A stretch of 64,000 nt of DNA from Devosia sp. FJ2-5-3. GTDB lineage: Bacteria > Pseudomonadota > Alphaproteobacteria > Rhizobiales > Devosiaceae. The stretch is taken from contig NZ_CP104007.1 of assembly GCF_029201545.1 (NCBI RefSeq), positions 1,398,501 through 1,462,500 of the forward strand, written 5' to 3'. A program made the translations under genes and the position numbers. The notes beneath the pieces were generated by a model. The model saw nothing but the letters and a program-made list of their open reading frames with translations, ran no database searches and was not told where the DNA came from. Of the stretch, positions 213 to 58,935 are shown piece by piece (the stretch's first letter is position 1; every line of letters begins with the position of its first letter).

Positions 213-1220
213 CTACTGATCGAGGGAGACGATCGTGCGGTCGGTCCAGCTGCGCTTTGCGCCCAGCGCGACCATGAGATTGAGCCGCGCTTCTTCGAGC
301 GTGGCCAAATGGCAGGGCTTGCCCTCGAGGGCATCGAGCATGGCATTGGCCTGGATGGAGAACCGGGCCTGGTGGGCTTCGGTCGGCACCAGCCCGTCCA
401 TGAAGTCGTGCGTTTCCTTGTCCTGGCCGCTGTCGTCGTCGGCAAAGCTCAGGATCGAGTGGTTGAGCGTCAGATTGCCCTTGGTGCCGATGAATTCGGT
501 TCGGGCGATATTGGGCTTCTGGAACTGGTTGATGGTGACATTGGCCATCGCCCCGCTTTCGAAGCAGATATTGACGAGGCAGGTGTCCTCGGTCTCGGTG
601 CCCTGGAGCACGAGACGGTCATGCATCGCGCCTACGGCGACGGGCCGACCCATCAGCCAGATCAGCATATCGAAGGTGTGGCTGGCTGCATCGAGAATGG
701 CGCCGCCACCCATTTCCGGGCGAGCATAATAGGTGCGCTGGAAGTCCGGGCGATATTTGGGAAATTCCTGGCCCGAATTGGCATAGACCAGTCGCAGATC
801 GCCGATCTTGCCGTTTGCAATACCCTCGCGCACGGCCAGCAATTCGGGAGCGATGCGTCGGATATAGCCGACACGCGCCAAAACGCCCGATTTCCTGACG
901 GCCTCGATGGCGGCGTCGACGCCGTCCATGGTCACGGCCAGCGGCTTTTCGACCATGAAGGCGAGGCCGGCCTCGGCGCAGCGCTGCATCAATGGCACAT
1001 GCAGATGGGCCGGAGCGCAGATGACCGCGAGATCGTAAGAAGAGAGATCGGCCTCCTCCAGGGCGGCGTAGCTGGCCTCGAGCGGAAACATCTCCTCGGC
1101 CTCGGCGCGCCGTTCCGCGTGCGGCTCGACGATCGACAGGCTTGCCCGCCCTGTCGCCAGATAGCCACGCAGATGCCGGCGGCCAATGCCACCACTGCCG
1201 ATAATCAGAACCCTCTTCAT
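213..1220 (-). CDS. Gfo/Idh/MocA-family oxidoreductase
   Basis: NAD(P)-dependent sugar or cyclitol dehydrogenase of about 335 residues, the usual family length. The N-terminal Rossmann loop GSGGIGRRH is at residues 8-16, and the family signature EKPLA is at 91-95. The C-terminal half carries the typical beta-sheet domain ('GGGAILDAASHTFDMLIWL'). An upstream ATG at 1256 exists, but ATG 1220 is preferred because a GGGGGA sequence precedes it and the Rossmann fold starts at once. It is divergent from the FadR regulator at 1432. Members of this family handle many sugars. One, YjhC/NanOx, converts 2,7-anhydro-sialic acid, which is worth considering given the NanA-like lyase nearby, but that link is only contextual. 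Confidence 0.88.
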   Translation of the reverse strand: MKRVLIIGSGGIGRRHLRGYLATGRASLSIVEPHAERRAEAEEMFPLEASYAALEEADLSSYDLAVICAPAHLHVPLMQRCAEAGLAFMVEKPLAVTMDGVDAAIEAVRKSGVLARVGYIRRIAPELLAVREGIANGKIGDLRLVYANSGQEFPKYRPDFQRTYYARPEMGGGAILDAASHTFDMLIWLMGRPVAVGAMHDRLVLQGTETEDTCLVNICFESGAMANVTINQFQKPNIARTEFIGTKGNLTLNHSILSFADDDSGQDKETHDFMDGLVPTEAHQARFSIQANAMLDALEGKPCHLATLEEARLNLMVALGAKRSWTDRTIVSLDQ

Positions 1221-1266
1221 TCCGTCCCCCATCAAGCGCTGATTGGTGCTTGACACTCCAAAAAAC

Positions 1267-1277: not shown

Positions 1278-1431
1278 GTTAATGAGATATCTTGGACTGT
1301 CAACACGGGTGCAGCCGTGTTTTTGAAGGAATTCGTTTGGCGAACTTCTGTTTCGTGGGATGAAATTTCTGCCGCTGGCGGAAATATCCCAATTGCGTAG
1401 AATTCGATTTCTGGGAGGGGTCGGGACGATT

Positions 1432-2274
1432 ATGCAGATATCCAGTTTTCCGGGCCCAGTGCGCCCAGATGTCGATCCAAGTGCCAAGTTTGGTCGACCA
1501 GATTTGAGCAAGGGTTCGCCAAACCCGTGCGGACAGCCAGCCAATGGTCCGAGTGCGGTGCCGGATGCTGCCGAGATTGCGTCAACCATCGCCCGGGACA
1601 TTCATTCCGGTGCGCTCGAAGAGGGTGGCATGCTCGCATCCGAGCGTCACCTTTGCGAGCGTTTTGGCGTCGGTCGCTCGATCATTCGCGAAGCGATCAA
1701 GCAGCTGGAGGCGATGAGCCTTGTCGAGCTGCGCAAGGGGCATCGGCCCCGCGTGGTCTATCCTACCCTGGCGCGTCTGCTGGACAGTATTTCGGGCGCA
1801 TCGCGCTTGCTGTTCAGCGGCACCGAGGGCGGCGCCCATATGGAGCAGGCGCGCCTGTTCCTTGAAACCAGCATGGTTCGCTATGCAGCCCAATCCGCCA
1901 CGCCGGCCCAGATCGGCAAGATGGTTGCGGCGATCGAGAAGGCCGATGGCGCGATCGAGGATTTGCCGCGCTTCCGCGATGCCGACGTGGAATTCCACCG
2001 GGCGCTCGCCGAGGTGCCGGGCAATCCGATTTTCATCGCGCTACACGACGCCTTTGTCGGTGGGCTGATGCGGGCCCGGCCCGACCCTACCGAAATCGCG
2101 CGCCATAACCGGCGCAGCAATGACGAGCACAAGGGTGTGGTGCAGGCCATCATCGCCCGCGATGCGGAGGCGGCGGTCACCATCCTGACCAAACACCTGA
2201 CGCGAAATTACGCCGTCTATGTCAATCACGTGCTGGCCCCGATGGGGGGCGGCAATCAAGCGCTGGAGGTTTAG
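1432..2274 (+). CDS. FadR-family (GntR/FCD) transcriptional regulator
   Basis: About 280 residues. A GntR winged helix-turn-helix is at roughly residues 45-110 (core 'LASERHLCERFGVGRSIIRE'). It is followed by an FCD ligand-binding domain whose metal-ligand pattern is recognisable: D..EFH near 'DADVEFHRALAE', then 'EHKGVVQAI' and 'LTKHL'. The ATG at 1432 is chosen over the one at 1360 because GGGAGGGG at 1413-1420 precedes it; the first 40 residues are poorly conserved-looking in either case. It stands just upstream of the ABC importer and NanA-like lyase on the same strand. NanR of E. coli is also FadR-type, so a NanR-like role is possible but not shown. Confidence 0.88.
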   Translation: MQISSFPGPVRPDVDPSAKFGRPDLSKGSPNPCGQPANGPSAVPDAAEIASTIARDIHSGALEEGGMLASERHLCERFGVGRSIIREAIKQLEAMSLVELRKGHRPRVVYPTLARLLDSISGASRLLFSGTEGGAHMEQARLFLETSMVRYAAQSATPAQIGKMVAAIEKADGAIEDLPRFRDADVEFHRALAEVPGNPIFIALHDAFVGGLMRARPDPTEIARHNRRSNDEHKGVVQAIIARDAEAAVTILTKHLTRNYAVYVNHVLAPMGGGNQALEV

Positions 2275-2374
2275 CCGATCACCGACTTCCGCAGCATTGG
2301 CTGCGGCGCCCGGGACTGACGTGGGGTTCGTTCCGGAGCAGAGTTCAAAATATTTTTCTAACAGGGGAACGTAG

Positions 2375-4006
2375 ATGCAATTCAAGAAACTGATCGCTAC
2401 CGGCCTGGCCGTGCTGATGACGTCCACCGCCATTGGCGGCGTGGTCGCTCAGCCGATCAACGAAAATCCATTGTCCGATCCGCGCGTGCGCCAGGCGATT
2501 TCCTACGCCATCGACATGGACACGATCGCGGAGACCATTTTCGAGGGCGCTGCCATTCCGGCCGACGGCCTTCTGCCGGATGGTCCGAACAAGCCGACCG
2601 ATCTCAACCCGTACAAATATGATCCGGACAAGGCTCGCGAACTCCTCGCCGAAGCTGGCTGGGACAGCAATCGCGAACTGGACGTCGTCTTCTATTACGC
2701 CGACCAGGCAACGACCGACCTTATGGCCGCCATGCAGGCCTATCTCGCCGATGTCGGCATCAAGATGAACTACCGCCTGCTCGAGGGCGATATCGGCTCG
2801 CAGATCTCGGTGGTGCCGGATGATCCGGTAAACGGCCCGTCCAAGGTCACCTGGGATATGCTCTACGGTGCCCGCGCCGCGCTGGCCCTGCAGGAATATT
2901 TCAACCGCTATGCCCTGGGCGGCAAGCCGATGATCCCGAACATTCCGCGGATGAACGAGCTGGTGGCCAAGGTCAACGGCACGACGGATCCGGAAATCCA
3001 GCGCGAAGGCTACTTCGAGATGGAGCGGATCATCAACGAGAACGTCTACCAGATCCCGCTGTACTACCAGCAGCTCTACACGTTCGAGAGCACGCGCCTC
3101 AACCGCAACGGTGCCCCATACGGCAACGAGCAGTACAATTACAACTGGGGTGTCGAAGGCTGGACGATCGAGCCCGATGCCAGCGGCAAGGCGGTGATGT
3201 ACACCAATACCGCCCCTGCCCAGTTCTTCGAAGTGCCGTGGCAGAATCTGGGGATCTGGGTCTCCAACAAGTTCGCCTTCGACACCGTTCTCGAATCCGA
3301 CGGCGACCTGCTGCCGATCGGCGGCGAGATGGCTGACACCTATTCCGTTAGCGACGACGGCCTCACCTTCACGGTGACGCTCAAGGATGGCCTGACCTGG
3401 CACGATGGCACCGCCATTACCGGCGATGACCTGGCCTGGTCGATCGGGGCCGCGATGAAGTTCCCGATCACCCATCCCGTGGTCAAGTCGACCCTGGCCA
3501 AGATCGATGGCGCCGAGGCATTCGTGGCCGGCGAGGCCGATGCTGTCTCCGGCGTCAGCGTCGACGGCAATACGGTCACCGTCAAGTTCGCGACGGTCGA
3601 TCCCAATGTGCTGCTGACTTTCAGCCAGTTCGCACCGCTTCCGGCCGCACAGTTCGAAGGTGTCGACCCGATCAATCTCCAGCAGGCTCCCTACTGGCAG
3701 AAGCCGATCGGCTCGGGTCCGTTCAAGATCGATGAAGTCGTGATGAACGACTACACGACGCTCGTGCCGTTCGAGGGCTATCACAAGGGCACTCCGAAGA
3801 TCGAACAGATCATCGCCAGCCCGTCCTATGAAAACGACGCGAACCTGCTCGTCAACGCAACCGCCGGCAAGGCCGATTTCGGCTACACCAAGGTTGCCAG
3901 CGACGTGCCGGCACTCGAAGCGCTGGATCACATGGTCGTGCACCCGATCAACATCCCCTACACGCGCATGCTCTGGATCAACCAGTTCCCGCATCCGACG
4001 AACTGA
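2375..4006 (+). CDS. Circularly permuted family-5 (peptide-type) ABC substrate-binding protein
   Basis: A 543-residue secreted binding protein with an Sec signal peptide (residues 1 to about 25, ending GVVA). The block order is abnormal. Residues about 31-265 ('DPRVRQAISYAID', 'YDPDKARELLAEAGW', 'YQIPLYYQQLYTFES', 'NWGVEGWTIEP') correspond to the usual C-terminal half of DppA/OppA-type proteins. Residues about 272-543 ('VMYTNTAPAQ', 'DGLTFTVTLKDGLTWHDG', 'GSGPFKI', 'YHKGTPKIEQI', 'ADFGYTKVASDVPALE', 'RMLWINQFPHPTN') correspond to the usual N-terminal half. The stop falls exactly where the chain would normally continue into 'NPLSDPRVRQ'. Compare the proteins at 57284 and 58936: there 'TWTFKLREGVQFHRG' is near residue 100 and 'LVRRALMHAID' near 295. 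It has a good RBS (AGGGGAAC) and a permease 80 bases later, so it is probably functional. The ligand is unknown. Confidence 0.93.
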   Translation: MQFKKLIATGLAVLMTSTAIGGVVAQPINENPLSDPRVRQAISYAIDMDTIAETIFEGAAIPADGLLPDGPNKPTDLNPYKYDPDKARELLAEAGWDSNRELDVVFYYADQATTDLMAAMQAYLADVGIKMNYRLLEGDIGSQISVVPDDPVNGPSKVTWDMLYGARAALALQEYFNRYALGGKPMIPNIPRMNELVAKVNGTTDPEIQREGYFEMERIINENVYQIPLYYQQLYTFESTRLNRNGAPYGNEQYNYNWGVEGWTIEPDASGKAVMYTNTAPAQFFEVPWQNLGIWVSNKFAFDTVLESDGDLLPIGGEMADTYSVSDDGLTFTVTLKDGLTWHDGTAITGDDLAWSIGAAMKFPITHPVVKSTLAKIDGAEAFVAGEADAVSGVSVDGNTVTVKFATVDPNVLLTFSQFAPLPAAQFEGVDPINLQQAPYWQKPIGSGPFKIDEVVMNDYTTLVPFEGYHKGTPKIEQIIASPSYENDANLLVNATAGKADFGYTKVASDVPALEALDHMVVHPINIPYTRMLWINQFPHPTN

Positions 4007-4017
4007 TTTGACTGACG

Positions 4018-4045
4018 GGAGCGCCGGCTTCGAGGCCGGCGCTCC
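4018..4045 (+). terminator. Intercistronic stem-loop after the binding-protein gene
   Basis: Perfect inverted repeat GGAGCGCCGGC / GCCGGCGCTCC with loop TTCGAG. It sits 12 bases after the binding-protein stop and 40 bases before the permease start. There is no T-run, so it is more likely an mRNA-stabilising or attenuating hairpin that lets the binding protein be made in excess than a full terminator. Similar hairpins follow the binding-protein genes at 32103, 58876 and 60531. Confidence 0.6.
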
Positions 4046-4085
4046 TCGCATATTTTCCAATTAAGACGGGGACTGGCCAGACACC

Positions 4086-5048
4086 ATGCTGACCTACATC
4101 ATCAGGCGCATCCTGATCCTGATCCCGATGGCATTCGTCATCTGCTTCCTGGTTTATCTGGGGCTTGAGCTCACGCCGGGGGACGCTGTCTCCCACATGA
4201 TCAGTCCCGATATGCTCGGCAGCATGGATCCGGAACGACTAGAAGCCCTGCGCCAGTCGCTCGGGCTCGGTCAGCCTTTCTATGTCCGGTTCTGGTCCTG
4301 GTTCACCAATCTGATCCAGGGCAATTTCGGCTATTCAACCAATGGCGGCGTGCCCATTGCCAACATCATCGCGACGCGCCTGCCGGCCACGCTGGAACTG
4401 GCCGCCATCGCGCTGTTGTTCTCGACGGTGATCGGCTGCATCCTGGGCGTGGTCAGTGCGCTCAAGCGCGGCAGCGCCACCGACAGCGCGCTGACGGTCG
4501 TCGGCATGCTGGGCGTCTCCATCCCCGAATTCTTCTTCGGCCTCGTCGCCATCCTGATTTTCGGTCTCAATCTCGGCTGGTTGCCCGTGGGCGGACGTTC
4601 CATGCCTGGCTATCTGACCTTCTGGGATCGGGTGCCGCATCTGGTCATGCCATCCCTCGTGCTCTCCATCATGCTGACCGCCGGCGTCATGCGTTATGCG
4701 CGCTCCTCCATGCTCGATGCGCTGAGCCGCGATTTCATCAAGACCGCCCGTTCGAAGGGCCTGCCGGAATGGCGCGTCAACGTGCTGCACGGCTTTCGCG
4801 TGGCGCTGACCCCGGTGGTCGTGCTGATCGGCTTCCGCCTGCCGGTGCTCATCGGCGGCTCGGTCATCATCGAACAGGTCTTTCAATGGCCCGGGATCGG
4901 CAATGAGTTCATCTCGGCCGTCCGCTCCCAGGATTATCCGGTGGTGATGACCATCGCGCTGCTCTCGGTGATGGCAGTGCTGATCGCCAGCCTGATCGTC
5001 GACATCCTGACCGCCCTTATCGATCCGCGCGTGCGGCTGGGAGAATAG
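4086..5048 (+). CDS. ABC transporter permease, DppB/OppB type
   Basis: Inner-membrane subunit of about 320 residues. It starts with the classic 'YIIRRILILIPMAFVICFLVY' hydrophobic helix, then the extracellular loop 'ELTPGDAV..', and several further membrane segments. The cytoplasmic coupling loop that docks on the ATPases is visible as 'LSRDFIKTARSKGLPEWRV'. Length and order fit the first permease of a dipeptide/oligopeptide/nickel-type importer. It is separated by 4 bases from the second permease, with which it should form the heterodimeric channel for the ligand delivered by the permuted binding protein upstream. Confidence 0.93.
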   Translation: MLTYIIRRILILIPMAFVICFLVYLGLELTPGDAVSHMISPDMLGSMDPERLEALRQSLGLGQPFYVRFWSWFTNLIQGNFGYSTNGGVPIANIIATRLPATLELAAIALLFSTVIGCILGVVSALKRGSATDSALTVVGMLGVSIPEFFFGLVAILIFGLNLGWLPVGGRSMPGYLTFWDRVPHLVMPSLVLSIMLTAGVMRYARSSMLDALSRDFIKTARSKGLPEWRVNVLHGFRVALTPVVVLIGFRLPVLIGGSVIIEQVFQWPGIGNEFISAVRSQDYPVVMTIALLSVMAVLIASLIVDILTALIDPRVRLGE

Positions 5049-5052
5049 TTTC

Positions 5053-5994
5053 ATGACAGCCCCCATTGCTCGTTCCACTCGCCGTCGCACAAGGCTAGAC
5101 GCCCAGTTCGATCGCATCCGCGCCCGTGAGGAGGCCGGCGAGGCCCGCTCCCGCGGCGGCTCGCGAACATTCAACAAATTCCTCAACAACCGGCTTGCCG
5201 TGGTCGGACTGGTCATCTTTTCGGTGATCATCCTCGCCTCGATCTTCGCACCGCTCCTCACGCCCTACGATCCGAACAAGATCGATTTGCGTGGCATGCT
5301 GCAGGCCCCGTCCTGGGAGCACTGGTTCGGCACCGACCGCACCGGCCGCGACCTCTTTTCGCGCGTGCTCTATGGCGGCCGCATCTCGATCCTCGTGGGA
5401 TTGGGAAGCGCCATCATGGCGGCCATAGTGGGCGTGCTGATCGGGGTCTATACCGGCTATGTCGGCGGCTGGCTCGATGCCCTCGCCATGCGCATCTCGG
5501 AAATCTTCATGTCGTTTCCGCAGATCATCCTCGTGCTGATGCTGGTCTCGATCCTTGGCCAGTCGCTGCTCAATTTGATGCTGATCTTCACGCTCACCGG
5601 ATGGGGCGGAATCTACCGCATGGCCCGGGCGCGCATGCTCAGCCTGCGCGAAGAAGAATATGTGCTGGCGCTGCGCAGCTTCGGGCTGTCCCGGCCGCTC
5701 ATTGCCTACAAGCACATGCTGCCCAATGCCCTCGGCCCGATCATGGTCAACATTACCCTCTCGACGGCGGCGTTCATCCTGCAGGAAGCGGGCCTCAGCT
5801 TCCTTGGGCTCGGCGTGCCGCTCTCCATCCCGACCTGGGGCAATATTCTCAACGTGGCGCAGGACCTTCGCGTGCTGCAGACCAATTGGTGGATCTGGCT
5901 GCCTGTCGGCACCGTGATTTCGCTCTTCGTGCTCAGCGTCAATTTCATTGGCGATGGTCTGCGCGATGCGACAGATCCGACCCAGCAAGGATAA
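5053..5994 (+). CDS. ABC transporter permease, DppC/OppC type
   Basis: Second channel subunit, about 313 residues. An arginine-rich cytoplasmic N-terminus (residues 1-40) leads into 'NNRLAVVGLVIFSVIILASIFAPLL', the typical first helix of DppC proteins, then the loop 'WFGTDRTGRDLFSRVLYGGRISL'-like region (FGTDRTGRD) that is a family hallmark. The coupling motif is near 'ALRSFGLSRPLIAYKHMLP'. It lies between the other permease (4-base gap) and the first ATPase (4-base gap), so translation is probably coupled along the operon. Confidence 0.93.
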   Translation: MTAPIARSTRRRTRLDAQFDRIRAREEAGEARSRGGSRTFNKFLNNRLAVVGLVIFSVIILASIFAPLLTPYDPNKIDLRGMLQAPSWEHWFGTDRTGRDLFSRVLYGGRISILVGLGSAIMAAIVGVLIGVYTGYVGGWLDALAMRISEIFMSFPQIILVLMLVSILGQSLLNLMLIFTLTGWGGIYRMARARMLSLREEEYVLALRSFGLSRPLIAYKHMLPNALGPIMVNITLSTAAFILQEAGLSFLGLGVPLSIPTWGNILNVAQDLRVLQTNWWIWLPVGTVISLFVLSVNFIGDGLRDATDPTQQG

Positions 5995-5998
5995 GGCG

Positions 5999-7009
5999 AT
6001 GACCGATACGCAAGATATCGCCATCAGCGTGCGCGATCTCAAAACCTTCTTCTACACCAATAATCGCTGCAACCGGGCTCTCAACGGCGTCTCCTTCGAC
6101 ATCAAGAAGGGCAAGACGCTGTGCATCGTCGGCGAAAGCGGCTGCGGCAAATCCGTGACCGCCGCCTCGATCATGCAATTGCTGCCCGATCTGTCACGCA
6201 TCGAGGATGGCGAGATCATCTATCACGCCGATCGCGGGGACATTCCGCTCCACGCTCTGGAGAAGAACGGCCGCGACATGCGCCGCATTCGCGGCGGCGA
6301 GATCGCCATGATCTTCCAGGATCCGATGACGGCGCTCAATCCGGTTTATTCGGTCGGCTTCCAGATCAAGGAAAGCCTGCGCTACCATCTCAAAATGGTC
6401 GGGAAGGCGGCCCATCAGAAGGCGATTTCCCTCCTCAAGGAAATGGGGATCGCCCTTCCCGAAAAGCGGGTGAACGACTTCCCGCATCGCTATTCGGGCG
6501 GCATGCGTCAACGCGCCATGATCGCCATGGCCATGGCCTGCAACCCCAAGGTTCTGATCGCCGACGAGCCGACAACGGCGCTCGACGTGACCATCCAGGC
6601 GCAGATCTTCGAGCTCATGGACAAGCTCAAGCGCGAGCACGGCACCGGCATCATGCTCATTACCCATGACATGGGCGTGGTGGCCGAACTCGCTGACGAT
6701 GTGGCCGTGATGTATATGGGCAATATCGTCGAGGCCGGGACGGTGGACGAAGTCCTCCGCAATCCGACCCACCCCTATACCAAGGCGCTCCTCTCCTCCG
6801 TGCCCGTTCTGGGCAAGGGCAAGAGCCAGGACATCAAGGCCATTCGCGGCTCGACGCCCGATCCGCTCAACCGACCCAAGGGCTGCCAGTTCGCCGATCG
6901 CTGCGATTTCGCAATCGATCAGTGCAAGGCCATGCCCCCAGAGACACACATGACATCGACCCATCGGGTCATGTGCTGGCGCTACAAGGAGCTTTCCGCT
7001 CATGAATGA
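5999..7009 (+). CDS. ABC transporter ATPase, DppD/OppD type
   Basis: About 336 residues. Walker A GESGCGKS is at residues 45-52. The signature '[14 protein letters not shown]', Walker B '[14 protein letters not shown]' and the switch histidine 'LITHDMG' follow in order. The C-terminal cysteine region ('[19 protein letters not shown]') is the oligopeptide-type extension, which in relatives can hold an iron-sulfur cluster. An upstream ATG at 5948 lies inside the permease gene; ATG 5999 is preferred because it directly begins the conserved domain after AAGG. The gene overlaps the next ATPase gene by 8 bases. Confidence 0.94.
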
Positions 7010-8042
7010 GGAAAAAGATGTCATTCTCCGCCTGCGCGGGGTGAAGGCGCATTTCCCGGTCAAGGCAGGCGTCTTCAAGCGCACGGTCGGCCATGTGAAG
7101 GCTGTCGACGGCGTCGATATCGACGTCTATCGCGGCGAGGTCCTCGGCCTCGTGGGCGAAAGCGGCTGCGGCAAGACCACGCTCGGCAAGGCCATCCTGC
7201 AGCTGGTGAAGCCCACCGACGGCGAAATCGTCTATAATTCGCCGCAGGGTGAAGAGGCCGATCTGGTCAAGCTCGACAACGAGCAGATGACCCCGTTCCG
7301 CAAGCGCCTGCAGATCGTCTTCCAGGATCCGCATTCCTCGCTCAATCCGGCCTTCACCATTTTCGGCTCGCTCGAAGACCCGCTCAAGAAATACGGGGTC
7401 AAGACGCGCGAGGAGCGCCGCAAGATCATCGGCGACCTGCTCGAAGCGGTGAACATGCGCCGCGAATATATGGACCGCTATCCGCACGAGTTTTCGGGCG
7501 GCCAGCGCCAGCGCATTGGTATTGCCCGGGCGCTCAGCATCGAGCCGGAACTGATCGTCTGCGACGAAGCCGTCTCGGCGCTCGACGTGTCGATCCAGGC
7601 CCAGGTGCTGCAGCTCCTGATGAAGCTCAAGCGCGAGCGAAACCTCACCTATATCTTCATCACCCACGATCTCAGCGTCACCGAATATATCTGCGACCGC
7701 GTCGCCGTGATGTATCTGGGGCGGGTGGTGGAGCTGTGCCGCTCGGAAGATCTCTTTGCCAAAAACCTCCACCCCTATACCGAGGCGCTGCTCTCGGCCA
7801 TTCCAGTGGCGGACCTCGACAAGAAAACCGATCGCATCGTCCTCCAGGGCGACGTGCCGAGCCCGGTGAACCCGCCTTCGGGCTGCCCGTTCCATCCGCG
7901 CTGCCGCTACGCCAAGGACGTCTGCAAGACTGTCGTGCCGCCGCTCAAGCGCTACTCGGTCGACGGGCACGATCACTACGCCTCCTGCCACCTCATCGAT
8001 TTGCCGGAAGCGACGGATGCTCCCGTCGCCATCCCGGCCTGA
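7002..8042 (+). CDS. ABC transporter ATPase, DppF/OppF type
   Basis: About 346 residues. It has Walker A GESGCGKTT, signature '[15 protein letters not shown]', Walker B 'LIVCDEAVSALD' and H-loop 'FITHDLS'. The stretch 'AHFPVKAGVFKRTVGHVKAVDG' near the start is typical of DppF subunits, as is the C-terminal 'CPFHPRCRYAKDVC'. With the DppD-type protein it forms the ATP-hydrolysing heterodimer of the importer. Its start overlaps the preceding gene (ATGAATGA). The following lyase gene begins 22 bases after its stop. Confidence 0.94.
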   Translation: MNEEKDVILRLRGVKAHFPVKAGVFKRTVGHVKAVDGVDIDVYRGEVLGLVGESGCGKTTLGKAILQLVKPTDGEIVYNSPQGEEADLVKLDNEQMTPFRKRLQIVFQDPHSSLNPAFTIFGSLEDPLKKYGVKTREERRKIIGDLLEAVNMRREYMDRYPHEFSGGQRQRIGIARALSIEPELIVCDEAVSALDVSIQAQVLQLLMKLKRERNLTYIFITHDLSVTEYICDRVAVMYLGRVVELCRSEDLFAKNLHPYTEALLSAIPVADLDKKTDRIVLQGDVPSPVNPPSGCPFHPRCRYAKDVCKTVVPPLKRYSVDGHDHYASCHLIDLPEATDAPVAIPA

Positions 8043-8064
8043 TTTTTCCAATTCGGAGCCAAAA

Positions 8065-8994
8065 TTGTCAGCGTCAAAGCTTGCTTCCATCACCGGCGTG
8101 CTGCCGGCCCTGGTGACCCCGTTCGATGAGAACGAAAATTTCGACGAAGGGCGGATGCGCGCCGTCGTCGATTTCCTCATCGGCCGCGGCATTGACGGGC
8201 TTTATGTCACCGGCAGCACCGGCGAAGCCTTCATGATGTCGCCCGAAGAGCGCAAGCGTGCGCTCGAAGTGGTCATCGACGAGACCAAGGGCCGGGTGCC
8301 GGTCATCGCCCATGTCGGCGCCATCAGCACGTACCACTCGTCCGATCTGGCGCGTCACGCCGAAAAGGCCGGCGCCGATGCGCTCTCGGCCGTGCCGCCC
8401 TTCTACTGGGGTTTTTCCCAGGACCAGATTCTCTCCTACTATACCGACATCACGGCTTCGACCGGCCTGCCGATGTGCGCCTATAACGTGCCGCTGGCCG
8501 GGCTCTTCGGCTTCGACATGATCAAGCGTTTGGCCGAAATTCCGGGCGTCGAAGGCATCAAGTACACCGCCACTACCCACCACGACATCATGCGCATCAA
8601 GGCCGAGATCGGGTCCGATTTCGTGCTTTATTCGGGTGCCGACGAGATGGCGATGTCGGGCCTGCATTTTGGTGCCGACGGCATTATCGGCAGCTTCTAC
8701 AACGCCATTCCCGAAATTTTCCTGGCGCTTTACGCGGCGGTCAAGGCTGGCGACATGGCCAAGGCCAAGGAGCTGCAGGAAGTGGGCAATGCCATCATCT
8801 TCTTCACCCTGCCGCGTAATGCCATGGCCGCCCTCAAGCGCATGGTGACCTGGCAGGGCGCCGATGCCGGCTATTGCCGCAAGCCCTTTGGCAATTTCTA
8901 CACACAGGCCGAAGAGGATCAGCTCAAGGCCGAATTCCGCGCCTTCAAGGCCGAACGCAAGATCACGGGCGTCAACTTCCTCGACGTCATCTAG
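8065..8994 (+). CDS. N-acetylneuraminate lyase-like aldolase (DapA/NanA family)
   Basis: A 309-residue TIM-barrel class I aldolase. The motif GSTGEAF at residues 50-56, 'IAHVGAIST', 'GLPMCAYNVP' (Tyr140), 'GIKYT' (Schiff-base Lys166), 'LYSGADE' and the late 'CRKPFG' match N-acetylneuraminate lyase rather than dihydrodipicolinate synthase, whose motif is GTTGE. The likely reaction splits sialic acid or another nonulosonic acid into pyruvate and an amino sugar. The start TTG 8065 is preferred over ATG 8017 (inside the ATPase gene), because CGGAG precedes it and the family begins there. Its place behind a peptide-type ABC importer recalls sialic acid SatABCD systems. Specificity is inferred. Confidence 0.82.
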   Translation: MSASKLASITGVLPALVTPFDENENFDEGRMRAVVDFLIGRGIDGLYVTGSTGEAFMMSPEERKRALEVVIDETKGRVPVIAHVGAISTYHSSDLARHAEKAGADALSAVPPFYWGFSQDQILSYYTDITASTGLPMCAYNVPLAGLFGFDMIKRLAEIPGVEGIKYTATTHHDIMRIKAEIGSDFVLYSGADEMAMSGLHFGADGIIGSFYNAIPEIFLALYAAVKAGDMAKAKELQEVGNAIIFFTLPRNAMAALKRMVTWQGADAGYCRKPFGNFYTQAEEDQLKAEFRAFKAERKITGVNFLDVI

Positions 8995-9958: not shown

Positions 9959-10650
9959 CTTTTGACAACGCCAATATTGGCGAGAACACCATCATCGAGC
10001 CAGACGTTTCCATCGGCTTCCGCTACCACCCCGAGTGCGGTCCTGCCTCTGTCGGCCGCCATGGCATCGTGCGCAAGGGCACGATCATCTATGGCGATGT
10101 CCGCATTGGCGATCACTTCCAAAGCGGGCACCACACGGTGATCCGCGCCAAGGTGGCGATGGGCGATTTCTGCGCCATCGGCAATGGCTCAACCATCGAA
10201 GGGCTGGTGCGGATGGGGCAGGGCGTCCGCATCATGTCCCATGTCTACATCCCCTCCCGCACCTGGTTCGGCGACCACGTCTTTGTCGGGCCGGGCACGA
10301 AATTCCTCAATGAGCGTCTCCCGGGGCGTCTCGACGATCCGCCGACGCCGCGCGGCGCGACCATCGAGGATGACGTCATGATTGGCGGCGGCGTCACTAT
10401 CCTGCCGGGTGTCACCATCGGCGAGCGCAGTTTTGTCGCTGCCGGGGCGGTGGTCACGCGCGACGTGCCACCCCGCAGTCTCGTGATCGGGCCGAAGGGC
10501 GAGTGCCGCATCCTGCCGCCGCATCTCGACCGTCCCAACAGTCTGAGGCTGTGCGAAGCGCCGACCGACCTTTGGCATCCCGAGACGGATATTGCCGGGC
10601 TCCACTGGCCGAGCGACTGGGCCGAGAGTTGGGAAGGGGTAACGCAATGA
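9955..10650 (+). CDS. Hexapeptide-repeat (left-handed beta-helix) acyltransferase
   Basis: A 231-residue protein dominated by isoleucine-patch hexapeptides ('IGENTIIEPDVSIG', 'KGTIIYGDVRIGD', 'IEDDVMIGGGVTILPGVTIG') that ends with the usual cap 'GAVVTRDVPP'. Such trimeric enzymes move acetyl or other acyl groups from CoA to sugars or amino sugars; the histidine pair in 'SGHHTVIRA' may be catalytic. It begins with GTG overlapping the previous stop (GTGA) and ends overlapping the next start (ATGA). In an aldolase-rich nonulosonic-acid-like operon it may acetylate or deacylate-protect an amino sugar intermediate, but the acceptor is unknown. Confidence 0.85.
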   Translation: MTFDNANIGENTIIEPDVSIGFRYHPECGPASVGRHGIVRKGTIIYGDVRIGDHFQSGHHTVIRAKVAMGDFCAIGNGSTIEGLVRMGQGVRIMSHVYIPSRTWFGDHVFVGPGTKFLNERLPGRLDDPPTPRGATIEDDVMIGGGVTILPGVTIGERSFVAAGAVVTRDVPPRSLVIGPKGECRILPPHLDRPNSLRLCEAPTDLWHPETDIAGLHWPSDWAESWEGVTQ

Positions 10651-11573
10651 CCGCCGCCAGCACCAGGATTTCGGGCAATTGGGCTTCCCTGCTCCTGCCC
10701 ATCAATAGCGACGACAGCATCGATTATGCCCAGCTCGGCGACGCCATGGACGTGCTCGTCGCGGCCGGTGTCGATGGTATTTATTCCAACGGAACGGCCT
10801 CGGAATTTTACACCCAGAGCGAAGCCGAGTTCGACAAGATTCAGGAGATGCTGGCGAACCGCTGCACCGCCGCAGGCCAGCCCTTCATCATTGGTGCCTG
10901 CCACACAGATGCCCGCCAGTCTCTCGAGCGCGTGCGCCGCGCGGTTGGCCTGAAGCCGCTCGCGATGCAGGTGATCCTGCCCGACTGGTGGCCGGTCGGC
11001 GTCGACGAAGCCCGTGATTTCCTCATGCAGGCTTCGGAGGCCGCGGCCGGCATCCCGCTCATTCTCTACAATCCGCCCCACGCCAAGCGTGTGCTGACGC
11101 CGGCCGAGATTGCCGAGGCGACGCACGGCACTGCCGTTAGCGCCACCAAGCTGACGCTGGGTGGGGAAGGGTGGTACGAGGAGGCGCGCCAGCATCTGTC
11201 CCATCTCGGCGTGTTCGTGCCCGGCCACCATCTGGCGACCGGCATGCGTGAGGGCGTCGCCGCTGGTGCCTTTTCCAATGTGGCCTGTCTCTCTCCGATC
11301 GGCGCCCAGCGCTGGACGGAGATGATGAAGACCGACCTAGCAACCGCCCTCGATATCGAGACGCGCATCAAGGGTTTCGTCATGGGCCATATCCTGCCCT
11401 TTGCCGAGCAGGGTTTTTCCAATGCCGCGCTCGACAAGCTGCTCGCCGCCATTGGCGGCTGGGCCGATGTGGGCACGCGCCTGCGCGGGCCCTATCGTTC
11501 CATTGATCCGGATGCGGCGACGGCGCTGCGCGCCATCGCCCATCAAATGATCCCGGAGATCATGACCCCATAA
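10647..11573 (+). CDS. DapA-family lyase/synthase, second copy
   Basis: A 308-residue class I aldolase-fold protein. The catalytic Tyr is at 141 ('LILYNPPHAKR') and the Schiff-base Lys at 168 ('SATKLT'). The usual GTTGE/GSTGE loop reads 'GTASEF', so specificity differs from both DapA and NanA. It probably cleaves or forms a 2-keto acid with pyruvate as the Schiff-base partner. The ATGA overlap with the acyltransferase gene marks the true start. Its 3' end overlaps the convergent amidohydrolase gene by 14 bases. It shares only low similarity with the lyase at 8065, so it is not a recent duplicate. Confidence 0.85.
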   Translation: MTAASTRISGNWASLLLPINSDDSIDYAQLGDAMDVLVAAGVDGIYSNGTASEFYTQSEAEFDKIQEMLANRCTAAGQPFIIGACHTDARQSLERVRRAVGLKPLAMQVILPDWWPVGVDEARDFLMQASEAAAGIPLILYNPPHAKRVLTPAEIAEATHGTAVSATKLTLGGEGWYEEARQHLSHLGVFVPGHHLATGMREGVAAGAFSNVACLSPIGAQRWTEMMKTDLATALDIETRIKGFVMGHILPFAEQGFSNAALDKLLAAIGGWADVGTRLRGPYRSIDPDAATALRAIAHQMIPEIMTP

Positions 11574-12603
11574 AAGCCCGCACATCTTCGCGCGCAGCAT
11601 CGACCAGCTCGCGCGCTGTGTCGTGGAAGAGGGCATTGCGCTGCTGTTCGGTCAGCCCGAGCTGGCGCGCCCCGCGCTTCATCGCCCGCAATTGCTCGTA
11701 GCGGATATAGGTCATGCGGCTGTCGCAATGGCTGAGATTGAGGCTGTGATTGGTGTCCGAGAGGAACGCCCAGGCATAGCCGAAGGCGATATATTTGCCG
11801 CGCGCCGGGCCGATCATGTCGTCGCTGCCATACATCACCCGGTCGACGCCCACACCGGTGTAGAGCGCGTCGAGCGCATCGGACTCGCAGACGGTGGAGG
11901 TGTCGTACCAGACATTGGGCAGGCCGCGCAGGCTCGCCGCCGCCTTCTCGATGGCCCAGGACGAATAGGAGCGGGCGCAATGGGCAAGGATCCAGCGCAC
12001 GCGCGGGTACTTTTCGCTCAGGCGACGGATCTCGCTGATATTGTCCGGGTCCGAAATCGCCTTGCGCTTGGAAAGATGCATCATCACGATCAGCCCCAGC
12101 TTGTCGGCCAGCGCGATCTGGTGCTCGGGTAGGAAGTCGGTGATCGAGGCTTCCGGCGGATCCCCGTTTGTCGCGTAGACCAGATAGGGCTTTAGGCCGA
12201 TGGCGCCGGTGCGCCGCAGCGTGTCGAGAATGTCATCCTCGGTCATCGTCGGATGCACCATCATCAGCGCGGCCGAATTTTTGGCCTTTTGCATCTCGGC
12301 GGCCACGTAAACATTGGACGCCTCGAAATCGCACTTGCCGGCAAAAGGAAATGGGAACGCCAGCCTCTCGATCTCGCGTCCCGGCATCATCGCCGCGTCG
12401 ACAGCATCGGCGAGTTCCTTGGTGACCTCGGGAAAATGCGTGCCGATGCTGGCCGCATAGGGACCACTTTCCTTGTCCGGGTTGATGTTGAAGGCCCAGC
12501 GATAGATGTGGGTGTGCACGTCAAACACCTTCGCCGGAACGAAGGCATCCAGCTCCTCGGTCCAGATGCGTCGATCGAGATCGGTTGGCGCGAAATCAGC
12601 CAT
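11560..12603 (-). CDS. Amidohydrolase-family (COG2159-like) metal-dependent hydrolase or decarboxylase
   Basis: A 347-residue TIM-barrel amidohydrolase. The metal pair 'DVHTHIY' (His30, His32), the later 'MMHLSKR', 'ILAHCARSY' and the barrel-end 'MYGSDDM' give the usual His/Asp ligand order. Members hydrolyse lactones or amides, or decarboxylate aromatic and beta-keto acids. It is read opposite to the preceding operon and divergent from the class III aminotransferase, with only 75 bases between their starts. That gap holds a clear palindromic operator candidate, so the two are probably co-regulated. Confidence 0.85.
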   Translation of the reverse strand: MADFAPTDLDRRIWTEELDAFVPAKVFDVHTHIYRWAFNINPDKESGPYAASIGTHFPEVTKELADAVDAAMMPGREIERLAFPFPFAGKCDFEASNVYVAAEMQKAKNSAALMMVHPTMTEDDILDTLRRTGAIGLKPYLVYATNGDPPEASITDFLPEHQIALADKLGLIVMMHLSKRKAISDPDNISEIRRLSEKYPRVRWILAHCARSYSSWAIEKAAASLRGLPNVWYDTSTVCESDALDALYTGVGVDRVMYGSDDMIGPARGKYIAFGYAWAFLSDTNHSLNLSHCDSRMTYIRYEQLRAMKRGARQLGLTEQQRNALFHDTARELVDAAREDVRAFMGS

Positions 12604-12620
12604 AATATCCTCCGTTCAGG

Positions 12621-12659
12621 CTTGATCTATCATGTTACACTGATAACAATATAATCAAG
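12621..12659. promoter_or_regulatory. Nested palindromes, candidate operator in divergent promoter
   Basis: TGTTA-N6-TAACA (12633-12648) lies inside an outer pair CTTGAT (12621-12626) / ATCAAG (12654-12659), nearly concentric. The right side includes ATAACAATATA (12643-12653), which matches the motif at 1267-1277 in reverse. The position between the amidohydrolase and aminotransferase starts fits a dimeric regulator that controls both, perhaps the FadR protein at 1432. Confidence 0.5.
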
Positions 12660-12678
12660 TGACATCAGGAGGTTGAGC

Positions 12679-13983
12679 GTGGGAAAAGGGCAGGATCTGT
12701 GGCGCAGGGCCAAGGAGGTCATTCCGGGGGGCAATATGCTGTTGTCCAAGCGGCCGGAAATGTTTCTGCCTGATCAGTGGCCGGCCTATTTCAGCAAGTC
12801 GAAGGGCTGTCACGTGTGGGATCTCGATGGGCGCGAGCTCATCGACATGACCATTATGGGCGTCGGCGCCAACACGCTGGGCTATGGGGATGAGCGCGTC
12901 GATGCTGCCGTGCTCGAGGTCGTCGCCAAGGGCAATATGTCCACGCTCAACGCCCCCGAGGAAGTGGCGCTGGCCGAAAAGCTGATCGAGCTGCATCCCT
13001 GGGCCGACATGGCCCGTTTTGCCCGCACCGGCGGCGAGGCCAATGCCATCGCCATCCGCATCGCCCGCGCCGCGTCCGGTCGCGATGGCATCGCCATCTG
13101 CGGCTATCACGGCTGGCACGACTGGTACCTCGCCTCGAACTTGGGCACCGACGACAGCCTTGCAGGCCATTTGCTGCCCGGCCTCGATCCCAATGGCGTG
13201 CCGGGAAATCTGCGCGGCACCGTCTATCCCTTTGCCTATGACGATATTCCAGCCCTCGAAGCGGTGATCGCTACCGGCAAGGTCGGCGTCATCATGATGG
13301 AAGTCTCGCGAAACTTCGATCCGCCGGCGGGTTATCTCGAGCGTGTGCGCGAGCTGGCCACGGCCAATGGCATCGTGCTGATTTTCGACGAGTGCACCTC
13401 CGGCTTCCGACAGAGTTTTGGCGGTCTGCACAAGAATTACAATGTCGACCCCGACATGGCTGTGTTCGGCAAGGCGCTGGGCAATGGCTATGCCGTCACC
13501 GCCATCATTGGCCGTCGCGCGGTCATGGAATCTGCCCAGACCACCTTTATCAGCTCGACCTTCTGGACCGAGCGCATCGGCTCGGCAGCGGGTCTCGCCA
13601 CGCTCGCCGTCATGGAAGAAACCCAGTCCTGGGACGCTATCACCCGCACAGGGCTCGATATTACCGCCCGCTGGAAAACTCTGGCTGAAAAGCACGGCCT
13701 CAAGCTCACCACGGCAGGACTTCCGGCCCTCACCAGCTTCAATTTCGCTGGCCCCAATTCTGCCGCCTACAAGACATTGATCAGCCAGGAAATGCTGGAT
13801 AAGGGCTATCTGGCTGCCAACAGCGTCTACACCTGCACCGCCCACACGCCGGATATCGTCGATGGCTATTTCCATGCGCTCGATCCGGTCTTTGCATTGA
13901 TCGCCGAATGCGAGGCGGGGCGCGATGTGATGACCCTGCTGCGCGGCCCCATCTGCCATGCCAGCTTCAAGCGGCTCAACTAG
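12679..13983 (+). CDS. Class III (glutamate-1-semialdehyde-type) PLP aminotransferase
   Basis: A 434-residue fold-type I aminotransferase. It opens with 'AKEVIPGGNMLLSKRPEMF', typical of the GSA-aminotransferase branch. 'ARTGGEANAIAIRIARAAS' binds PLP phosphate, 'LIFDECTSGFR' carries the PLP-nitrogen Asp, and 'FGKALGNG' holds the Schiff-base Lys265. Start GTG 12679 is chosen because CAGGAGG at 12666-12672 is 6 bases upstream; the TTG at 12673 abuts it. In nonulosonic-acid and amino-sugar loci such enzymes aminate keto sugars or semialdehydes. Here it is followed 9 bases later by a ureidoglycolate-lyase-like gene. The substrate is unknown. Confidence 0.85.
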   Translation: MGKGQDLWRRAKEVIPGGNMLLSKRPEMFLPDQWPAYFSKSKGCHVWDLDGRELIDMTIMGVGANTLGYGDERVDAAVLEVVAKGNMSTLNAPEEVALAEKLIELHPWADMARFARTGGEANAIAIRIARAASGRDGIAICGYHGWHDWYLASNLGTDDSLAGHLLPGLDPNGVPGNLRGTVYPFAYDDIPALEAVIATGKVGVIMMEVSRNFDPPAGYLERVRELATANGIVLIFDECTSGFRQSFGGLHKNYNVDPDMAVFGKALGNGYAVTAIIGRRAVMESAQTTFISSTFWTERIGSAAGLATLAVMEETQSWDAITRTGLDITARWKTLAEKHGLKLTTAGLPALTSFNFAGPNSAAYKTLISQEMLDKGYLAANSVYTCTAHTPDIVDGYFHALDPVFALIAECEAGRDVMTLLRGPICHASFKRLN

Positions 13984-13992
13984 GTCACGACC

Positions 13993-14466
13993 ATGTCGAT
14001 CACACTCAAGGCTCAGCCGCTCACCGCTGCGGCCATTGCTCCCTATGTCACCCTGCTCGGCTCGGACGACGGCAAGGCCCGGGCCATCCCCGAAGTGATG
14101 GAAAAGGGCGATGTTTCCGGCGCCCATGCTTTCACAGTGCTTTGCCCGCAGCCCGTCACAGGGGCGATTTCGGTCGCCGCGCTGGAGCGCCACCCGCATT
14201 CCACGCAGAGCTTTGTCCCGCTCAAGGCAGGTCGGTGGCTGGTGCTGGTTGCACCCACTGCCGCCGATGGCTCCCCCGATCTTTCCGGCGCCAAGGCTTT
14301 CCTCGCCGGCCCGGAAGACGCCATCTGCATCGGCCAGAATGTCTGGCATGCCGGCCTCACCGTGCTGGATCAGCCGGCGCAGTTCGGCATGATCATGTGG
14401 AAGGCCGAGAGCGAGGAAGATGGCATCCTCTTCCAGCTCGACGCGCCGATCTCAGTCGAAGTCTAG
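13993..14466 (+). CDS. Ureidoglycolate lyase (AllA)-family protein
   Basis: A 157-residue cupin-like protein. The motif 'LERHPHSTQSFVPL' followed by 'WLVLVAP' and 'NVWHAGLTVL' is the hallmark of the ureidoglycolate lyase family, whose members release glyoxylate and urea at the end of allantoin breakdown. No other purine-degradation gene is visible here. The partner is a class III aminotransferase, so it may act on another hydroxyglycine-like or keto acid adduct. The stop overlaps the convergent small gene at 14452-14754 by 15 bases. Confidence 0.82.
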   Translation: MSITLKAQPLTAAAIAPYVTLLGSDDGKARAIPEVMEKGDVSGAHAFTVLCPQPVTGAISVAALERHPHSTQSFVPLKAGRWLVLVAPTAADGSPDLSGAKAFLAGPEDAICIGQNVWHAGLTVLDQPAQFGMIMWKAESEEDGILFQLDAPISVEV

Positions 14467-57283: not shown

Positions 57284-58876
57284 ATGAATTTGAATCGCCG
57301 CAATTTCATGGAGCTGGCTGCAGCTTCGACGGCCCTGACCGCAGTTGGCGTCAGCGCCGCCAGCGCGCAGGGCGACGACACGATCCGGATCGGCATCGCC
57401 GCCAATAATCCGCGCCATTCGGACCCCAACCAGACGACGCAGGGCCCCGATAACTGGGCGGTCGAGCAGCTCTATGAGCAGCTCGTGCGTCCCGATGACG
57501 GCAAGTTTGCGCTGGCGCCGGACGACTACAAGCCTGTGCTGGCCACCGAATGGTCGGTTTCGGAAGACGCCAAGACCTGGACGTTCAAGCTGCGCGAGGG
57601 TGTGCAGTTCCATCGCGGCTATGGCGAGATGACCTCGGAAGACGTCGTCTTCACCTTCCTCAAGGCCAAGGAATTCGGCACGGGCCGGGTGATCTTTGCC
57701 AATATCGAGGATGCGGTGGGCAATGGCCCCTATGAGGTGGTGATCACGCTCAAGCAGCCGGACGTAAATTTCCTCGGCACCACGGTGTTCTCGCTCAATG
57801 CGAACATCGTCTCCAAGAAGGCCTATGAGGAAATCGGGGTGGAGAAGTTCACCACCGACGCCGTGGGCACCGGCCCCTATGAGCTGACGAAGTACGATGC
57901 CGAGAGCGGCACCTATCTCACCCGCTTCGCCGATTATTGGGGCGAGCCGGCCAAGGTCGCCAATATCGAGTGTCTCTATATCGCCGATACCACGGCGCGG
58001 ACGCTGGCGCTGGTTTCCGGCCAGGTGGACATGATCGAGGCCGTGCGTGCGCCGGGCTGGATCGACAGCATCCTGCAGCGCGATCCGAACATGAAGGTCG
58101 ACATGACCGTGCCGGGTTCGTTCAACACCCTGCACGTCAATCTCACTCGCGCGCCATTCGACAATATCCTCGTGCGCCGGGCACTTATGCATGCCATTGA
58201 CCGCAATCTCGTCGCCGAGGCGCTGGCGCCGATGGGCGGCGTGTTGGTCGGCCTGCAGCCGGACTTCTTCCCGCCGGGGCTCAAGACCGAGGACCTGCCC
58301 GAAGAGCTGCGCTACGAGTACGATCCGGAGAAGTCGAAGGCCCTGCTGGCCGAGGCCGGTTTCCCGGATGGCATCAGCTTCGATGCCCTCTGCAGCCAGC
58401 GCGAGGACTATTCCTCGACAATGCTGATCGTGCAGGAACTGATCCGCCCGGCCGGGTTCAACATGAACCTGATCATCGGCGATCACACCGCGTATCACGC
58501 CGACAACCGCTCGGACAAAAACACGCTGGCGATGCACGCCTCGAGCTATCCGCCGATCCCGACGCAGATCTATATCCAGCAGCTCTATTCGAAGGCCGAG
58601 GTGAAGGCCGACGGTTCGGGTGGCGGCAATTACAGCCATTATGGCGTTGCCATGCCGGGTATCGACGATTTGCTCGAGCAGGCTTTGGCCGCCACCAATT
58701 ACGACACTTATGTCGACCTTTGCCGCCAGATCGAGCTGCAGGTGCTGCGTGACCTGCCGCTGATCGGCCTGTCGACCTTGTCATACACCATGGTGCGCAA
58801 TCCGCGCCTCGACCTCGGCTATGAGGTCGAGAGCGGCTATGCGCGCTGGAGACTACACCGCGCCACCAAGGCGTAA
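57284..58876 (+). CDS. Family-5 ABC substrate-binding protein, first of tandem pair
   Basis: 530 residues with a twin-arginine-type signal ('NRRNFMELAAASTALTAVG', cut after SAQ). Order is canonical: 'TWTFKLREGVQFHRG' near residue 100, 'GTGPYELTKYD', 'NTLHVNLTRAPFDNILVRRA' near 295, 'YDPEKSKALLAEAGFPDG', and 'QIELQVLRDLPLIGL' near the end. It would bind the ligand of the transporter encoded at 60588-64000. It is closely similar to the next gene, including long stretches with silent differences. It follows the enolase-family gene by 21 bases. Confidence 0.93.
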   Translation: MNLNRRNFMELAAASTALTAVGVSAASAQGDDTIRIGIAANNPRHSDPNQTTQGPDNWAVEQLYEQLVRPDDGKFALAPDDYKPVLATEWSVSEDAKTWTFKLREGVQFHRGYGEMTSEDVVFTFLKAKEFGTGRVIFANIEDAVGNGPYEVVITLKQPDVNFLGTTVFSLNANIVSKKAYEEIGVEKFTTDAVGTGPYELTKYDAESGTYLTRFADYWGEPAKVANIECLYIADTTARTLALVSGQVDMIEAVRAPGWIDSILQRDPNMKVDMTVPGSFNTLHVNLTRAPFDNILVRRALMHAIDRNLVAEALAPMGGVLVGLQPDFFPPGLKTEDLPEELRYEYDPEKSKALLAEAGFPDGISFDALCSQREDYSSTMLIVQELIRPAGFNMNLIIGDHTAYHADNRSDKNTLAMHASSYPPIPTQIYIQQLYSKAEVKADGSGGGNYSHYGVAMPGIDDLLEQALAATNYDTYVDLCRQIELQVLRDLPLIGLSTLSYTMVRNPRLDLGYEVESGYARWRLHRATKA

Positions 58877-58882
58877 GTGTGT

Positions 58883-58911
58883 GGGGGCGCCGGCGAGGGG
58901 TCGGCGCCCCC
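58883..58911 (+). terminator. Intercistronic stem-loop between tandem binding-protein genes
   Basis: Perfect 10-base repeat GGGGGCGCCG / CGGCGCCCCC with a 9-base loop, seven bases after the first binding-protein stop, with no T-run. Probably a 3' mRNA stabiliser. Confidence 0.55.
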
Positions 58912-58935
58912 ATCAAAATGGGAGGAGGAGACCCC

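Follow-up and report, generated by a model that had tools for sequence, protein, structure and literature searches.

The locus described here raises the question of whether a bacterial substrate-binding protein can carry its two halves in reversed order and, if so, how such a receptor arose and what it binds. The gene concerned occupies positions 2375-4006 on the forward strand of a 64,000-nucleotide stretch of the Devosia sp. FJ2-5-3 chromosome (the window; G000:C1:1398501-1462500, from a genome of one contig of 4,192,992 bases). It is a single intact open reading frame, stop codon included, that encodes 543 amino acids. From inspection of the nucleotide and translated sequences it had been proposed that the product is a circularly permuted family-5 binding protein of an ATP-binding cassette (ABC) transporter, and this proposal is supported by matches to Pfam and to PDB sequences, by alignments of the family and by two structure models. 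PF00496, the only Pfam family above threshold, matched the protein with 213.7 bits (curated cut-off 32.4), which places it in family 5. Instead of running once from the N to the C terminus along the chain, the profile was split at its position 209, with profile positions 209-326 matching in the N-terminal half of the protein and 5-209 in the C-terminal half. As two reversed stretches of PF00496 are present, the protein is, on sequence grounds, classed as a permuted sister subclass of this family and not as a canonical member. Similarly, phmmer searches against PDB chains aligned residues 20-137 with residues 264-381 of YliB/GsiB and residues 316-505 with residues 69-240; among the alignments listed, the same reversal was obtained against Lmo0135 and 8upi, and the family profile likewise gave the reversed order. 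Two AlphaFold2 models of permuted proteins from different phyla (pLDDT 89.1 and 90.8) matched family-5 structures with each half separately and in swapped order, both predicted lobes resembling cluster C structures, as expected from the sequence-only reading. The two canonical paralogues in the window, which had been put forward as a direct control, served this purpose in part. For the old C-terminal half the pairwise signal was clear (local scores of 113 and 102; best of 200 shuffles, 58 and 54), while for the old N-terminal half it was weak (73 and 61; best of 200 shuffles, 70 and 59). The paralogues are too distant for a strong pairwise control of this half, for which the comparison becomes convincing only with profiles. 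When hidden Markov models of the separate halves were applied to the 40 other family-5 proteins of the genome, 35 were canonical, five showed the N-terminal half only and none was permuted. Our analysis thus confirmed a family-5 (cluster C) binding protein that consists of a signal peptide, the old C-terminal half, a short linker and the old N-terminal half.

The segments of the protein, all on the forward strand, can be delimited as follows. The putative signal peptide comprises residues 1-25 (2375-2449) according to the family alignment, with the cleavage site placed by eye and with low model confidence in this region. The old C-terminal half, corresponding to lobe II, comprises residues 27-231 (2453-3067). 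Residues 237-239 (3083-3091) align with the YejA hinge segment 540-542, which leads from lobe II to lobe I, and residues 240-271 (3092-3187) contain the old C-terminus and the linker to the old N-terminus. The old N-terminal half, lobe I, follows at residues 272-523 (3188-3943), and in residues 524-536 (3944-3982) the chain is, according to the alignments and the model, predicted to cross back to lobe II and to form its first strand with an invariant Tyr-Thr-Arg. Alignment to the ends of Escherichia coli DppA extends the old C-terminus to about residue 265 and starts the old N-terminus at about residue 271, leaving a linker of about 5 residues (approximately 266-270). The proposed junction near residues 260-271 and the proposed new ends between INQFPHPTN and NPLSDPRVRQ were recovered by the same four lines of evidence. 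The new C-terminus is located 9-12 residues past Tyr-Thr-Arg in 230 of the 235 proteins of the family set described below, the other five falling outside this simple pattern. In YejA, the hinge is formed by the segments 282-287 and 540-542 (PMC10924461; this and the other papers cited here are drawn on in excerpt). The former aligns with residues ~524-529 of the permuted protein and the latter with residues 237-239, and the C-terminal strand is formed by residues 530-536. This alignment supports the view that the strand has already crossed into lobe II, and the same mapping led us to reject a topology with one hinge crossing left. We thus predict that the chain is cut directly behind the first lobe II strand, that both hinge crossings are kept and that the exported end has moved to lobe II. 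In the predicted fold, lobe II would be built from residues ~27-231 and the strand 530-536 and lobe I from residues ~240-523, with both new ends on lobe II, where the sequence-only reading had placed them. The N- and C-termini of oligopeptide-binding proteins are close together (PMC10924461), which renders such a permutation feasible. A lipobox-like pattern was found in 10 of the 235 proteins, two of these being proteobacterial signal peptides, and some Bacillota members may carry a lipid anchor. A 571-residue open frame runs antisense to the whole gene (2345-4060, reverse strand) and probably results from codon bias at high G+C content.

The permutation is real, and rather than being confined to one odd protein it characterizes a family found in several phyla. 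In a first homologue search 7,999 candidates were scored, and the best 120 of 2,143 (53-92% identity) were retained, of which 118 cover 94-100% of the query with a single local alignment. A second search with a Christensenellaceae member as query contributed 114 new sequences among its best 120 of 1,380. In all 235 proteins, that is, the 234 relatives and the window protein, the old C-terminal half precedes the old N-terminal half. Both halves of one family are thus reversed in one frame and kept across independent genomes, as in a natural circular permutation. In a genome scan, the best 80 of 193 encoding stretches were taken as loci. They come from at least four phyla, the hosts being Devosia, roseobacters, marine single-cell Alphaproteobacteria (two of these records are titled Pelagibacteraceae), Spirochaetes, Bacillota, one KSB3 record and one Neomarinimicrobiota record. 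A tree of 38 representatives comprises 24 rows of Pseudomonadota, six of Spirochaetota, five of Bacillota, one of Fidelibacterota and two that are ungrouped. The distribution is patchy: the permuted family was detected in 2 of 289 genomes of the class, 13 of 75 of the genus (one of the 13 matches being shortened) and 24 of 110 of the family to which genome G161 belongs, counts that include the centre genome and represent lower bounds, as few candidates were scored per genome. It is likely that this rare rearrangement has persisted over a very long period. Among the records, the NanE of L046, titled Euryarchaeota, is 97% identical to that of the marine alphaproteobacterial locus L037, and L016, titled Acidobacteria, has a gene order like that of alphaproteobacterial loci; these two bins may therefore be mislabelled.

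Could the swapped order be an error of assembly or annotation, or mark a decaying pseudogene? A few shortened copies, including P0114 (351 residues), P0156 (412 residues) and one in a Devosia genome, might point in this direction. However, the order shared by 235 of 235 proteins and its occurrence in independent genomes of several phyla rule out an assembly error. In addition, the ratio of nonsynonymous to synonymous substitutions (dN/dS) against three relatives is about 0.07, 0.13 and 0.15 (dN and dS of 0.043 and 0.582, 0.111 and 0.885, and 0.120 and 0.806), and the residues at both junctions are conserved in the family alignment. We consider an artefact of this kind vanishingly improbable. 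The shortened frames (P0114, P0156 and G290:C1:3506556-3507554) lack the front of the old C-terminal half, for which gene decay, contig ends or sequencing errors are candidate causes. A different explanation would be that two different family-5 genes were joined in this order, so that no single gene was ever permuted. In line with this, the best canonical protein differs between the two half profiles (L086 for the N-terminal half, L084 for the C-terminal half), and no close canonical sister was found: when the halves in canonical order were used as a probe against 190 genomes of the class, with few candidates scored per genome, the best canonical protein reached 107 bits at 28% identity, whereas the two halves of the window protein itself scored 614 and 521 bits. 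On the other hand, all canonical proteins seen lie at a similarly large distance from either half, which makes these ranks poorly informative, and the halves sum to one near-complete chain with a linker of about 5 residues and a break at one profile position. We therefore regard a chimera as unlikely. If, as we favor, a single gene was permuted, fusion of two copies followed by loss of the outer halves was probably the route, and our data are consistent with such duplication and loss. One ancient event would have founded the family: two copies would have fused, the N-terminal half of the first copy would have been deleted behind its own signal peptide, and the second copy would have gained a stop behind its first lobe II strand. 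The sequence-only reading had held that a new signal peptide had to be acquired; this need not be so, since after fusion of two copies the original signal peptide would survive if the deletion took place in frame within the first copy. The new ends overlap by about 7 canonical positions (YejA 293-299), and the alignment of this overlap revealed no convincing shared letters as a trace of a duplication. The window also contains two canonical family-5 binding-protein genes in tandem (57284-58876 and 58879-60531) whose products are 79% identical over 529 residues; this recent tandem duplication is just the sort of starting point from which a permutant could arise.

The permuted gene heads a set of transport genes on the forward strand. 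Directly downstream are two Opp/Dpp-type permease genes (4086-5048 and 5053-5994), assigned by eye and by position, and two Opp-type ATPase genes (5948-7009, with a true start probably at about 5999, and 7002-8042), assigned by eye. They are followed by a gene for a NanA-like lyase of the DHDPS family (8017-8994), assigned by NCBIfam and PDB sequence matches; the top 33 of the 60 PDB matches listed are N-acetylneuraminate or acylneuraminate lyases. Upstream lies a GntR/FCD regulator (1360-2274, forward strand; Pfam FCD and GntR), for which NanR was the best NCBIfam family and whose true start is probably located further downstream than that of the open frame. A Gfo/Idh/MocA-type oxidoreductase gene (213-1256, reverse strand; PF01408, PF22725) is the divergent neighbor of the operon. 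Across 81 loci (the 80 loci and the window, some being short contig ends), gene clustering recovered permease 1 in 76, permease 2 in 69, ATPase 1 in 67, ATPase 2 in 71 and a DHDPS-family gene in 63. By tblastn over the 80 loci, the window NanA was matched in 70 (29-98% identity), NanE in 31, NanK in 25 and the NanR-like regulator in 30. After dereplication at 90%, the 46 loci of at least 12 kb contained NanA-like genes in 44 cases, NanR-like genes in 23, NanE in 15, NanK in 10 and the Gfo/Idh/MocA-type oxidoreductase in 22. Further downstream, the window carries a second DHDPS-family gene, an amidohydrolase, a class-III aminotransferase and a ureidoglycolate-lyase-type gene (10503-14466), the clusters of which recur near the permuted operon in 12, 17, 35 and 8 loci, respectively. 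In Breznakiella homolactica (L072:16868-18762) a second permease pair of the same clusters is located shortly downstream of the permuted operon.

Judged from the gene neighborhood alone, the operon likely imports a sialic-acid-type sugar. The main competing possibility accepts the permuted receptor as real and assigns to it a peptide, an opine or another keto-deoxy sugar acid that is cleaved by the NanA-like DHDPS enzyme; we consider this possible, if on balance doubtful. A number of observations speak against a sialic acid, some of them directly favoring this other ligand. Family-5 proteins bind mostly peptides and metals. The lyase ranks first with the NCBIfam N-acetylneuraminate lyase and yet, at 268.5 bits, stays just below the cut-off of 281; the same applies to the regulator, which matches NanR from residue 72 with 208.2 bits (cut-off 260). 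Two of the loci of at least 12 kb, L023 and L030, are without a NanA-like lyase, and several of the tblastn matches to NanA, with identities of just 29-40%, may represent different members of the DHDPS family. The source genome has seven DHDPS-family genes, and of its 40 canonical binding-protein genes, 5 have such a gene at a distance of no more than 9 kb. The window neighborhood is without NanE or NanK, the NanE-family genes of the genome lying elsewhere, and near many alphaproteobacterial members Gfo/Idh, short-chain dehydrogenase and HpcH/HpaI-type genes are found. Moreover, the Thr-Asp-His histidine of SatA, which we read as His333 (PMC11364026), a putative contact of the carboxylate of N-acetylneuraminic acid (Neu5Ac), aligns with Gln111 in a YYxDQxT stretch of the permuted family. 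The permuted receptor would therefore have to contact its ligand in another way, and what it binds may be a different sialic acid or no sialic acid at all. Finally, the genome holds a canonical SAT/ST3-type system as well as the permuted one. In favor of a sialic acid, NanE and NanK adjoin the permuted gene in marine alphaproteobacterial loci, as does NanE in some Bacillota, and the best PDB matches of the lyase are sialic-acid lyases.

The canonical system is encoded at L130 (G000:C1:3570000-3588000), where genes for a permease, a fused permease-ATPase (710 residues), an ATPase and NanA-, NanE- and NanK-type proteins accompany a canonical SatA orthologue. The latter aligns over residues 50-527 of 530 with Haemophilus ducreyi SatA (540 bits), and its gene is one of the five canonical binding-protein genes near a DHDPS gene. 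The designation of the window protein as a permuted SatA was rejected, the true orthologue being encoded elsewhere in the genome and the permuted halves being no nearer to this orthologue than to other paralogues. SatA was absent from the 50 rows listed of the structure comparisons, which is uninformative as these lists are truncated. A further candidate ligand is 2,7-anhydro-Neu5Ac. In Ruminococcus gnavus, a Gfo/Idh oxidoreductase is reportedly used for 2,7-anhydro-Neu5Ac. The window oxidoreductase, a candidate for such a role, gave only modest, mixed matches in a PDB search, and the second upstream oxidoreductase of L001 gave no matches in the same search. The excerpt of a paper on the AEGEAN-169 clade (PMC10308909) contains no mention of sialic, neuraminate or nanA; that this clade corresponds to loci studied here is a guess.

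Taken together, we consider it quite probable that the protein is an ordinary two-lobe binding protein with reversed halves, which is predicted to pass a sialic-acid-type sugar to the importer whose genes follow immediately downstream. It would be exported by its signal peptide, with lobe II, not lobe I, bearing the exported end, and would capture the ligand by lobe closure in the usual flytrap movement; the ligand would then be delivered to the permeases and the imported sugar cleaved by the NanA-like lyase. Going further, it might be speculated, with about even odds, that one ancient permutation founded a widespread subclass, 'cluster Cc', as the receptor of a ninth sialic-acid (nonulosonate) importer family, the anchored end having moved from lobe I to lobe II with the two-strand hinge intact. 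The natural permutation of a large and much-studied receptor class across phyla provides a natural experiment on chain order, folding and hinge motion, and the family bears on the question of which lobe may carry the anchor. Where source annotations name the permuted proteins, they are given as plain peptide or ABC transporter substrate-binding proteins, and thus the permutation has gone unmarked in those sources. If the ligand is a sialic acid, an importer family would be added in soil, marine, spirochaete and clostridial bacteria.

The sequence-only reading had noted no described family-5 binding protein with this topology, and in agreement with this a search of one open-access library found no family-5 circular permutant; no mention of permutation was found in PMC2861598 on OpuAC. 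With DppA, OppA, NikA and YejA (cluster C, family 5, PF00496) the permuted protein shares the sequence family, the predicted lobe folds, the hinge and the type of operon, but the order of its chain is reversed about a single cut that follows the first strand of lobe II, and its exported end is predicted on lobe II. Sialic-acid transporters comprise eight families, three of them ABC transporters, and the SatABCD receptor resembles peptide receptors (PMC10017367). The SAT/ST3 system SatABCD (PMC10017367, PMC11364026) likewise has a family-5 receptor and an Opp-type importer beside nan genes. In contrast, SatA is canonical and has a histidine where the permuted receptor has glutamine, SatA structures match only residues 30-96 of the permuted protein (44.9 bits), and the SatABCD-like locus of the source genome encodes a fused permease-ATPase. 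A natural circular permutation has been described in cluster B for TpMglB-2 (Tp0684), with a proposed 'Type Ic / Cluster Bc' (PMC4990184). As in our case, this is a naturally permuted binding protein found in several taxa, and the function of TpMglB-2 is kept (PMC4990184). However, TpMglB-2 is a cluster B glucose receptor with another cut that adds a fourth hinge crossing, whereas the permuted protein belongs to PF00496 and is predicted to keep both canonical crossings. Circularly permuted relations among bilobed binding proteins also connect glycine-betaine and molybdate binding proteins and CysB (PMC2395249); these are small type II proteins related structurally at <24% identity, and no family-5 case is named in the excerpt. 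Natural permutation is thus known in other classes of binding proteins, and here it has likely given rise to a broad natural family within family 5.
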